Below are positions 1 through 43,596 of a DNA stretch of 43,596 nt, piece by piece (the first letter of the stretch is position 1; every line of letters starts with the position of its first letter). Made by a program: the position numbers and the translations under genes. The notes beneath the pieces are model-generated. The model ran no database searches, was not told the origin of the DNA, and saw only the letters and a list, made by a program, of their open reading frames with translations. This DNA is from Planctomycetaceae bacterium (lineage in GTDB: Bacteria; Planctomycetota; Phycisphaerae; Phycisphaerales; SM1A02), in contig JAJTGK010000017.1 in the NCBI GenBank assembly GCA_021297815.1, forward strand, positions 1-43,596. Reading direction: 5' to 3'.

Positions 1-2
1 TC

Positions 3-944
3 TCACATCCCCATCGCGCGCAGCATCGTCGCGCCGAGGTCGGCGGGGCTCTCGGCCACCGCGATGCCGCAGGCCTTCAGCGCCTCGATCTTCGCCTGCG
101 CGGTGTCGTCGGCGCCGCCGATGATCGCGCCCGCGTGGCCCATGCGCTTGCCCTTCGGGGCGGTGCGGCCCGCGATGAAGCCCGCGACGGGCTTCTTCAT
201 GTTGGCCTTGATCCACTTGGCGGCCTCGACCTCGTCGGTGCCGCCGATCTCGCCGATCATCACCACGCCGTCGGTCTCGGAGTCGTTGTTGAAGAGTTCG
301 AGCGCCTCGATGAAGCCGAGGCCGCGCACGGGGTCGCCGCCGATGCCGACGCAGGTCGACTGGCCGAGCCCGCGCTGCGAGGTCTGCCACACCGCTTCGT
401 AGGTCAGCGTGCCCGAGCGGCTCACGATGCCGACGGCCTTTCGGCTCGAGGCGTCGAGACGGTGCGTGTGGATGTAGCCGGGCATGATGCCGATCTTGCA
501 GCCGCCCTCGAACTTGGCCGCGGGGCCTTCGCCCGACACGCGCTTGCCCGGCGTGATGATGCCTGGGCAGTTCGGGCCGATGAGCGTCGACTTCGGGTAC
601 GCCTTCAGCGCCTCCTTGACGCGGATCATGTCCTGCACGGGCACGCCCTCGGTGATCGCGCAGATCACGCGGATGCCCGCGTCGGCCGCCTCGAGGATCG
701 CGTCGGCCGCGCCCGCGGGGGGCACGAAGATCATGGTCGCGTCGGCGCCCGTCGCCTTCACCGCGGCAAGCACGGTGTCGAAGATCGGCAGGCCGTTCGG
801 GTCCTTCAGGCCGCCCTTGCCGGGCGTGACGCCGCCCACCATGCGGGTGCCGTAGTCGAAGCAGCCCTTGGTGTGCGAGGCGCCCGCGCTGCCGGTGATG
901 CCCTGGCAGATGACTTTCGTGTTTCCGTCGACAAGGATGGCCAT
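3..944 (-). CDS. sucD: Succinyl-CoA synthetase (ADP-forming) alpha subunit
   Basis: Translation [27 protein letters not shown]...[11 protein letters not shown]...[15 protein letters not shown]...GIGGDPVRG...[16 protein letters not shown] complement at 942-944, stop at 3-5. The 708-aa ORF extends spuriously upstream. Confidence 0.97.
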
Positions 945-1040
945 AGGGGGGGAGAGGATACACGACAGGACGGCGGGGCGACGCGGGGCCGAAAAGCCGT
1001 GCGGCGGGCGCTCCGCGGGGCTCGGTACACTCGCGCGCCC

Positions 1041-2135
1041 ATGGCCAGCGCGACCCGAACGAAGCCGAAGTCCTCGAAGAAGAAGCCCCTCACCTACGCC
1101 GCCGCGGGCGTCGACATCGACGCAGGCGACGAGGTGGTCGACCGCATCAAGCCGATCGTGCGGCGGACCTACTCGCCGCGCGTGCTCGGACTGCACGGCG
1201 CGTTCGCGGGCATGTTCAAGCTGAACGGCGCGGGGCGGAAGTACAAGGACCCCGTGCTCGTCGGCTGCACCGACGGCGTGGGCACGAAGGTGAAGCTCGC
1301 CGCGGAGTTCAAGATCTACGACACGGTCGGCATCGACTGCGTGGCGATGAATGTGAACGACCTGATCGTGCAGGGCGCGGAGCCGCTCTTCTTCCTCGAC
1401 TACCTCGGGCTTTCGAAGCTCGACCCCGCGAACACGACGGCGATGATCGCGGGCGTGGCGAAGGGGTGCGAGATCGCGGGTTGCGCGCTGATCGGCGGCG
1501 AATGCGCCGAGATGCCCGACATCTACGCACCGGGCGACTTCGATGTGGCGGGTTTCTGCGTGGGCGTCGTGGAGCACGCGCGCCTGAAGCGCCAGCCGAA
1601 GGTGCGCGCGGGCGACATCGTGCTCGGGCTTGCGTCGAGCGGTGTCCATTCGAACGGATACACGCTGGTGCGCCGCATCGCGAAGGACGCGGGGCTTTCG
1701 TACACGAAGAAGTACGCGGAGCTCGGCGGAAAGCGGCTGATCGATGTGCTGCTCGAGCCGACGCGCATCTACGCGCGGCAGATCGTGGGCATGCTCGCGA
1801 AGCTCGGCGGCAAGGAGGCCGTGACGGGCATGGCGCACATCACGGGCGGCGGGCTGCCCGGCAATGTGTGCCGCGCGCTCGGCGGCGATGTGGACGCGGT
1901 GATCCATGCGGACGCGTGGAACCCGCCTGCGATCTTCCCGTTCCTGCAGGAACACGGCGGCGTCGAGACCGAGGAGATGTACCGCGTGTTCAACATGGGC
2001 ATCGGATACACCGTCATCGTGCGGCCGAAGATGGCCGCGACGGTGATGAAGGCGCTGCGCAGCCTCGGCGAGAACCCCGTGCCGATCGGCATCGTGACGA
2101 AGGGCAAGGGCGACGCGCGCGTCGTGCACGGGTAA
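1041..2135 (+). CDS. purM: Phosphoribosylformylglycinamidine cyclo-ligase
   Basis: [24 protein letters not shown]...[14 protein letters not shown]...[25 protein letters not shown]...[12 protein letters not shown]...[13 protein letters not shown] is the PurM signature. Confidence 0.97.
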
Positions 2136-2174
2136 GTGACGGTCGGGCTGCGCCCGCTGCCACGCCCGCGCGCT

Positions 2175-41584: not shown

Positions 41585-41638
41585 GCGGGCGAGTGTACGG
41601 CCGCCGCGGCGGGTGGTGAGCGATACACTCCGCTCCCC

Positions 41639-42097
41639 ATGCGGCCTTCGTCGGACGCGTCCGCCAACTCCTCGAACCAGCCCTTCGCCCTCGAGGTCGA
41701 GGCCGAGTTCGCCGCGGCCCATGCGATCCTGCTCGCGGGCGCCCGCGAGCGGCTTCACGGCCACAACTGGCGCGTCGTCGCCTCCGTCGCGGGCGCTCGG
41801 CTCGACGGCGAGGAACTCCTCTGCGACTTCCATCTCGTCGAGCGGCTGCTCGCCGAGACCATAGCGCCGTTCCGCGACGGCAACCTGAACGACACGCCGC
41901 CGTTCGACCGCCGCAACCCGACCGCCGAAGCGGTTGCGCATCACATCGCGACCGAACTCGCCCGCCGTCTCTCCGCGGCCGCGCCCTCCGTGCAGCTCGA
42001 GTGGGTACGCGTGACCGAGGCTCCGCGCTGCACGGCCATCGTGCGCCTGCATGGCGGCGCCGTTCCCGACCCGCGAGGCCTCTCGCCGCACCGCTGA
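41639..42097 (+). CDS. 6-pyruvoyl-tetrahydropterin synthase / QueD-family protein
   Basis: VEAEFAAAHAILLAGARERLHGHNWRV, LLCDFHLVERLL, NLNDTPPFDRRNPTAEAVAHHIATEL, VRVTEAPRCTA. Confidence 0.87.
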   Translation: MRPSSDASANSSNQPFALEVEAEFAAAHAILLAGARERLHGHNWRVVASVAGARLDGEELLCDFHLVERLLAETIAPFRDGNLNDTPPFDRRNPTAEAVAHHIATELARRLSAAAPSVQLEWVRVTEAPRCTAIVRLHGGAVPDPRGLSPHR

Positions 42098-42133
42098 CGA
42101 AGGACACCGTCCGCACCTCCGCGCGACGCACCC

Positions 42134-43596
42134 ATGACCGACGCCTCCCACCGCAAGCCCGCCGCGCGCCCGACCCCGCCGAACGAGATCGTCCCCACGG
42201 GGCCCGACGACCCCGCGCGCTTCCTGAACCGCGACATCCAGTGGCTCGAGTTCAACCGCCGCGTGCTCGCGCAGGCGCTCGACCCGCGCAACCCGCTCCT
42301 CGAGCGCGTGCGCTTCCTCGCGATCTTCGGCTCGAACCTCGACGAGTTCTTCATGAAGCGCGTCGGCGGCCTGCGTCGCCAGATCGACGCGGGCGTCGGC
42401 AGCCCGCCCTGGGAGCCGCTCACGCCCGCCGAGCAATTGATCCTGATCCGCGAGCGCGTGCTCGAGCAGACCGCCCTCGCGACCGACGCGTACCGCGACA
42501 CCATCGTGCCGCTCCTGCGTGAGCAGTCGATCGAGCTCCTCGGCTGGAAGCAGCTCACCGACGCCGAGCGCGCCGAGGCCGAGCAGTGGTACCGCCGCAA
42601 TGTCTTCCCGATCCTCACGCCGCTCGCGGTCGACCCGGGCCACCGCTTCCCGTTCATCTCGAACATGTCGGTGTCGCTCGGCGTCCTCCTGCGCCGCCCG
42701 GGCGAGACCGAGGCGCTCTTCGCGCGCGTGAAGGTGCCCGAGCTCGGCGCGCGCCTCTACCGCTTCGGCGCGTCGCGCCGCTTCGTCTCGCTGCAGGAGG
42801 TCATCGCGCACAACCTCGACGACCTCTTCCCAGGCATGGAGATCGCCGAGGTCCTGCCGTTCCGCGTCACGCGCAACGCCGAGACCGAGCGCGACAACGA
42901 GGACGCCGAGGATCTCCTCGAGCAGATCCAGCAGCAGCTGCGCGAGCGCCGCTTCGCGCGCGTGGTGCGCCTCGAGATCGGCACGCAGGCGAACGAGCGC
43001 ATCATGCGCTTCCTCGAGGACGAGCTCGCGCTCGGCGACGACGACCTCTACGAGACGCACGGCATGCTCGACTGGGCCACGCTCAACGAGATCGCCGACA
43101 TCGACCTCCCCGAGCATCGGTGGCCCAAGTGGTCGCCCATCGCGCCCGCGGGCCTCGACGACGAGGATTCCGACATCTTCGCCCGCATCCGCGAAGGCGA
43201 CCTCCTTGTCCATCATCCGTACGAGAGCTTCGACCACACGGTCGAGCGCTTCATCGAGCAGGCGGCGGCCGACCCGAAGGTGCTCGCCATCAAGCAGGCG
43301 CTCTACCGGACGAGCGGCGACTCGCCCTTCATCCCGAGCCTGATCCGCGCCGCCGAAAGCGGCAAGCAGGTCGCGGTGCTCGTCGAGCTGCGCGCCCGCT
43401 TCGACGAGGCGCGCAACATCCTCTGGGCGCGCAAGCTCGAGGACGCGGGCGTGCATGTCGCCTACGGCGTCGTCGGCTACAAGACGCACACGAAGGCCGC
43501 GCTCGTCGTGCGCCAGGAGCAGGGCGGCATCCGCTCGTACGCCCACATCGGCACGGGCAACTACAACTCGAAGACCGCGCGGCTCTACGAGGACCT
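42134..43596 (+). CDS. ppk1: Polyphosphate kinase 1 (5' part, runs off the window)
   Basis: FLNRDIQWLEFNRRVLAQALDPRNPLLERVRFLAIFGSNLDEFFMKRVGGL...KQALYRTSGDSPFIPSLIRAAESGKQVAVLVELRARFDEARNI...GVVGYKTHTKAALVVRQE...AHIGTGNYN; no stop before window end. Confidence 0.95.
   Translation, partial: MTDASHRKPAARPTPPNEIVPTGPDDPARFLNRDIQWLEFNRRVLAQALDPRNPLLERVRFLAIFGSNLDEFFMKRVGGLRRQIDAGVGSPPWEPLTPAEQLILIRERVLEQTALATDAYRDTIVPLLREQSIELLGWKQLTDAERAEAEQWYRRNVFPILTPLAVDPGHRFPFISNMSVSLGVLLRRPGETEALFARVKVPELGARLYRFGASRRFVSLQEVIAHNLDDLFPGMEIAEVLPFRVTRNAETERDNEDAEDLLEQIQQQLRERRFARVVRLEIGTQANERIMRFLEDELALGDDDLYETHGMLDWATLNEIADIDLPEHRWPKWSPIAPAGLDDEDSDIFARIREGDLLVHHPYESFDHTVERFIEQAAADPKVLAIKQALYRTSGDSPFIPSLIRAAESGKQVAVLVELRARFDEARNILWARKLEDAGVHVAYGVVGYKTHTKAALVVRQEQGGIRSYAHIGTGNYNSKTARLYED

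Follow-up and report, generated by a model that had tools for sequence, protein, structure and literature searches.

Near-absence of the tetranucleotide ACGT from a Phycisphaerales genome and its patchy recurrence across the order

Why should a stretch of bacterial DNA in which the trinucleotide CGT is common lack the word ACGT almost entirely? The question is raised by a contig of 43,596 bp (JAJTGK010000017.1; hereafter the window, meaning this whole stretch) from a metagenome-assembled genome (MAG) of the planctomycete order Phycisphaerales (GCA_021297815.1; 3.03 Mb, 88% complete, 180 contigs; G000 in our sample), in which inspection of the letters alone had predicted near-absolute avoidance of this tetranucleotide. 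One of the genome's conserved proteins has its closest named relatives in MAGs of Phycisphaerales and of other Planctomycetota. The depletion proved to be real, to extend throughout the genome and to recur in many relatives, and its behaviour is that of selection against the word.

ACGT in the window and in the genome

A full count of the window found ACGT four times, at positions 25470, 25582, 32362 and 32393, against 130 occurrences expected from trinucleotide frequencies under a maximal-order Markov model (Poisson P ~5e-50). These are exactly the coordinates given in the original prediction; there are no further sites, and all four lie, as claimed, inside copies of a 55-bp repeat. Base composition alone predicts 119 occurrences, and shuffling the synonymous codons of the predicted genes gave 97 ± 5, with a minimum of 79 in 500 shuffles, compared with 2 observed in the open reading frames so tested, both in a repeat that a predicted open reading frame overlaps. 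The depletion thus holds under both the Markov and the codon-shuffled null. CGT itself is not avoided, as had been noted by eye (CCGT 252, GCGT 396, TCGT 327), and ACGA (288), ACGC (421) and ACGG (258) are plentiful too. Two other palindromes are also depleted in the window, CCGG (66 vs 323 expected, 0.20) and CTAG (7 vs 24 expected, 0.30). Avoidance of CCGG is shared by some members of the genus only: the word is depleted (0.20–0.23) in this genome, G013, G009 and G004 and not in G030, G016 and G098.

The avoidance is visible in codon choice. Genome-wide, 98% of NAY codons preceding GTN end in T, compared with 14–18% elsewhere, which bears out the predicted switch of these codons to T-ending forms before Val. 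The three examples offered for it, in a purM-like gene, nadA and thyX, read as described, and Pfam agrees with all three gene assignments (Table 1).

Beyond the window, counts were taken from 617 kb of the same genome, part of it contigs picked for carrying the 55-bp repeat. They gave 81 ACGT against ~1,770 expected, 61 within the repeat family and 20 elsewhere; outside the repeats the word stands at ~1% of expectation, which, if read as a mutation-selection balance, would correspond to a scaled selection strength of ~4.5 per site. Every NACGTN context is at 0.00–0.02 of expectation except CACGTG, which is the context of the repeats. Non-coding DNA is depleted to the same degree as coding DNA, with 2 sites against 161 expected in this genome, 0 against 34 in G013, 0 against 12 in G030 and 1 against 40 at other depleted loci. 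Because non-coding DNA and all flanking contexts are equally affected, the target is the 4-bp palindrome itself, and the depletion acts at the DNA level. An endoribonuclease that recognizes ACGU and so selects against transcripts containing it would fit with the retention of ACGU in structured ribosomal RNA (rRNA), as if protected by folding, but not with the equal depletion of non-coding DNA; moreover, palindromic targets are typically those of dimeric enzymes acting on DNA. We consider such avoidance at the RNA level highly improbable.

The repeats that hold most of the remaining sites form an interspersed family of 39 copies in the 617 kb, with the sequence GGTGCCTGGCACGTGCC...GGCACC, and they hold ACGT as members of that family. 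They are palindromic and paired, often at a spacing of ~143 bp, with spacers unrelated to each other, and are possibly elements of the repetitive extragenic palindromic (REP) kind. Their ACGT sites are mostly retained and yet ~3 times more variable per base than the other repeat positions, a comparison that is only suggestive because the copies are related. Core motifs of the repeat are also present in two congeners, G004 and the less depleted G008.

The concentration of 61 of the 81 sites in one family of paired palindromes could mean that ACGT is a signalling or regulatory word kept for a few functional sites, one of the three explanations originally offered. GANTC in Caulobacter is an example of such a reserved motif. 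The pattern that goes with one, sites kept in regulatory DNA and depleted in coding DNA, is not what we observed: outside the repeats, ACGT is as scarce in non-coding as in coding DNA, and the sites left over in other depleted genomes share no extended context and do not lie in such repeats. Furthermore, the repeat copies vary more at the very positions that would be reserved than at others, and repeat-like motifs occur in G008 as well. A reserved motif is therefore very unlikely.

Sites are also tolerated in rRNA genes. The 16S genes of the depleted genomes G030, G016, G020 and G004 each contain 3–4 ACGT, including the conserved ATGACGTCAAG and CACACGTGCTA, whereas their flanking DNA has 0. 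As both rRNA and repeats keep sites, each ACGT appears to be mildly costly, not lethal. A different kind of exception is a 6-kb stretch of depleted G007 carrying divergent C5-methyltransferase genes, which has 14 ACGT against 17 expected, compared with 3 against 28 in the adjoining DNA. This stretch looks recently acquired, since near-normal ACGT density is what would be expected of newly arrived DNA. DNA containing ACGT is probably disadvantaged in these bacteria, and ACGT-rich patches would then be the marks of recent arrivals.

Patchy recurrence across Phycisphaerales

Across the order, the ratio of observed to expected ACGT at one conserved locus in 80 species ranges from 0 to ~1. Whole-genome counts of GACGTC, from the source genome and 270 others with a completeness of 90% or more, run from 2 to >5,000; the source genome has 24, and other species of its genus have 55 to 2,006. 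On the stretches analyzed, the ratio for ACGT was 0.03 in G013, 0.01 in G030 and 0.046 in G098, of which 677 kb was read, and ~0.9–1.1 in G002 and G003. On the tree of the locus proteins, depleted and non-depleted states change 13–14 times, and at least 9 of these changes are forced by well-supported branches. The depletion is thus patchy and has been switched on and off repeatedly: many Phycisphaerales share it, but close sister species are without it.

ACGT is also singled out among comparable words. It falls below 0.2 of expectation in 19 of 69 species, whereas for eleven other palindromes 6 of 789 species-word pairs do so, and in G098 it is the most strongly avoided tetranucleotide, with no other avoided that strongly. 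Avoidance of CTAG is common in bacteria and is likewise a case of a palindromic tetranucleotide depleted with no identified cognate methyltransferase. Unlike the depletion of ACGT, which can be present in one sister species and absent from the next, low CTAG extends over much of the order, non-depleted species included.

That the source genome is a MAG raises the question of an assembly or base-calling artefact. The same depletion occurs, however, in unrelated assemblies from many laboratories, synonymous codon choice compensates for it and rRNA is spared, so an artefact is scarcely credible.

Mutation or selection

A second explanation in the original prediction was mutational. A C5-methyltransferase would convert the site to A-m5C-GT (m5C, 5-methylcytosine), and deamination would then drain it into ATGT or ACAT, as has been proposed for Helicobacter pylori, where m5C is found at ACGT and losses in the second reading frame are skewed towards ATGT/ACAT (PMC10423294). 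Alignment of depleted loci with those of non-depleted sister species at first seemed to support this. Only 3 of 183 ACGT sites (2%) were conserved, compared with 49% of other NCGN sites; single C-to-T or G-to-A changes made up 49% of the lost ACGT and ~20% for other NCGN, and the transition/transversion ratio was 2.7 at lost ACGT and 0.74 at other NCGN. The ACGT changes within the 55-bp repeats are mostly transitions as well.

Controlling for reading frame removed this support. Most ACGT sites fall in the frame NAC/GTN (the slash marking the codon boundary), where C-to-T is the sole synonymous exit, and the transition skew arises because this frame leaves no other synonymous route. At Thr codons in the frame ACG/T all three replacements are synonymous, and there the sister pairs gave ACC 12, ACA 3 and ACT 3, against 155, 48 and 18 in the control; ACA, the product of deamination, is not in excess (3/18 vs 48/221) in what is a small sample of 18 replacements against 221. 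ACC is the commonest replacement, in line with the earlier observation that Thr before a T-initial codon is written ACC instead of ACG. Codon usage provides a weightier test, although one that presumes near-equilibrium. Had all ACG been lost by way of ACA, at equal exchange rates, an ACA/ACC ratio of ~1.6 would be expected before T, whereas the source genome has 0.12 on a background of 0.07, with a similar context effect in non-depleted species; nor is there an excess of ACA before T in the codon usage of G013, G030 or the pooled depleted loci.

Since ACA is not in excess where it could be, the loss behaves as selection against the word and not as decay of a hypermutable site. The deamination signature is absent, and purifying selection against ACGT is favoured. 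As several strongly depleted genomes also lack C5-methyltransferases and the family is no commoner in depleted relatives than in others (see below), we regard methylation-linked deamination as improbable. The ATGT/ACAT skew in H. pylori, which has been read as deamination, could be rechecked in the same way, as the genetic code alone yields such a skew here.

The selecting agent

Of the three explanations originally proposed, restriction pressure fits best. We consider it probable that strong purifying selection acts on ACGT at the DNA level, most likely through an orthodox Type II enzyme that cuts ACGT and is either a long-term resident or only recently lost; the restriction enzyme as selecting agent is here deduced from the pattern of loss. 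An enzyme of the HpyCH4IV/MaeII/TaiI specificity class, incompletely countered by protection, would impose a slight cost on each chromosomal ACGT. Sites would then be lost through whichever synonymous changes are open to them, and would remain only where functionally constrained, as in rRNA, or newly arrived, as in spreading repeats and foreign islands.

The pattern has what such avoidance should show in a short palindrome targeted as a whole word, in depletion irrespective of coding status and in variation between close relatives, as when systems are gained and lost. Where an orthodox Type II system is present its sites come to be avoided, and the avoidance can outlast the system (Rusinov et al., 2015; PMC4687349). 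The Phycisphaerales case resembles such avoidance in its 4-bp palindrome, selection-like removal and lineage-dependent strength, and might likewise outlive a system. It differs in that one specificity is singled out order-wide in place of a mixture, in the level of ~1% outside repeats and in that no cognate system was found among the families tested. In H. pylori, ACGT is the HpyCH4IV site and stands at 0.05 of expectation genome-wide (PMC3849833). Here the likeness lies in the same tetranucleotide (HpyCH4IV/M.Hpy99XI specificity), a similarly extreme depletion and large differences between close lineages that methyltransferase presence does not explain (PMC10423294). H. pylori, however, has a known m5C methyltransferase and deamination has been invoked for it, whereas no C5-methyltransferase tracks the trait in Phycisphaerales, where the skew is, by the frame-controlled test, an effect of the genetic code and where the trait recurs over a whole order with genomes of ~54–70% guanine plus cytosine (GC).

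Several results weigh against a restriction enzyme. A search for an ACGT-specific methyltransferase or nuclease, an obvious check on the original prediction, found none with the families tested. C5-methyltransferases (PF00145) were found neither in the source genome nor in G013, G030, G020, G010, G006 and G098, and across the 270 genomes they show no association with depletion (9 of 31 depleted genomes vs 90 of 239 others; Fisher p 0.43). D12 methyltransferases (PF02086) are sporadic, occur mainly in non-depleted genomes and do not track the trait. A 306-aa PF01555 methyltransferase is present in most species of the order, depleted or not. Of 16 congeners, 15 have a gamma-class Type II-like methyltransferase, irrespective of ACGT level. 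GATC, GGCC, GCGC and TCGA are avoided in no sampled species, though random turnover of restriction systems should hit them. Finally, as only about one-fifth of the source genome was read base by base, the agent could have gone unnoticed. MAGs often lack methyltransferase genes matching their methylated motifs (PMC9426551), and we infer that the cognate system is missing from these MAGs, was recently lost or belongs to a family outside those tested.

Other details of the candidates are as follows. The 306-aa methyltransferase was not matched in G009, a depleted genome that is 78% complete. A second PF01555 enzyme similar in size to the 352-aa beta-class methyltransferase of G013 is also found in less depleted congeners, and three depleted genomes, G000, G010 and G006, lack it. 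The gamma-class methyltransferase is 48–58% identical to its counterparts in congeners and so is far more divergent than the 306-aa enzyme (80–90%). Near it is encoded an EVE-domain protein whose N-terminal part resembles a PD-(D/E)XK nuclease (GYPDCIAW...RIEFEF); it had no match in PADLOC or PDB and, among congeners, otherwise occurs only in the non-depleted G005 and G011.

The same results leave some room for a less likely agent, a Phycisphaerales-specific nuclease, defence or repair protein that targets ACGT outside classical restriction-modification. Such a DNA-targeting activity, independent of the known methyltransferase families and gained and lost many times, might remove ~99% of sites. 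It would fit with the singling out of ACGT among palindromes, with a trait that no tested methyltransferase family tracks and with G098, which avoids ACGT uniquely strongly and in which PF00145 has no match. There is, however, no candidate gene for such an activity, and the retention of ACGT in rRNA and repeats with no obvious harm would require weak or protected cutting. We think it doubtful, though somewhat more plausible than deamination. If it were true, ACGT content would be a readable clock of the presence of the activity and of recent DNA acquisition, and an agent other than a classical restriction-modification pair would add a novel type of DNA-targeting activity to those that shape genomes.

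Whether the agent is such a factor or the favoured restriction enzyme, comparison of gene content should reveal it, as depleted and non-depleted species number in the dozens and some pairs of them barely differ in their marker proteins. The phenomenon is of a known kind, and is extreme and recurrent in Phycisphaerales; most site avoidance is incomplete and is accounted for one case at a time. New here are a depletion that is close to total in a GC-rich genome, the repeated switching across an order with a single word as target, the failure of any tested methyltransferase to track the trait and the frame-controlled argument against deamination. We found no report of ACGT depletion in planctomycetes in the literature searched, and the main text of a long-read lake metaepigenome paper mentions neither ACGT nor planctomycetes.

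Table 1. Features of the window (plain coordinates) and of other sequences (genome:contig and locus coordinates)
Feature	Location	Strand	Remarks
ACGT avoidance	1..43596	.	4 vs ~130 expected; CCGG 0.20 and CTAG 0.30 of expectation
55-bp interspersed palindromic repeat, copy 1 of pair	25429..25483	+	Left site ATGT; right ACGT kept (25470)
55-bp repeat, copy 2 of pair	25572..25626	+	Left ACGT kept (25582); right site ATGT
55-bp repeat	32142..32196	+	No ACGT at either site (ACAT, ACGA)
55-bp repeat, identical to reference copy	32352..32406	+	Both ACGT kept (32362, 32393)
AAT GTG AAC in purM-like open reading frame	1350..1358	+	Asn is AAT before Val, avoiding ACGT; Pfam AIRS
TAT GTC AAC in nadA	9945..9953	+	Tyr is TAT before Val; Pfam NadA
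AAT GTG AAC in thyX	36901..36909	+	Asn is AAT before Val; Pfam Thy1 (ThyX)
306-aa PF01555 methyltransferase	G000:C13:3783-4700; L033:3780-4700	-	Motif order DPMCGSGTT...DPPYSTHVDYS; conserved across Phycisphaerales
Gamma-class Type II-like methyltransferase	G000:C130:2826-4463; L027:2826-4466	+	Motif scan; nearest solved structure M.BseCI
EVE-domain protein	G000:C130:966-2012; L027:966-2012	-	Near gamma-class methyltransferase; nuclease-like N-terminal part
Divergent C5-methyltransferase genes, depleted G007	L179:12501-18613 (G007:C23)		Near-normal ACGT

A different palindrome, AGCT, is almost absent at four Phycisphaerales loci (L152, L161, L165 and L173), with 0 against 51 and 0 against 46 expected at two of them; ACGT is normal there.

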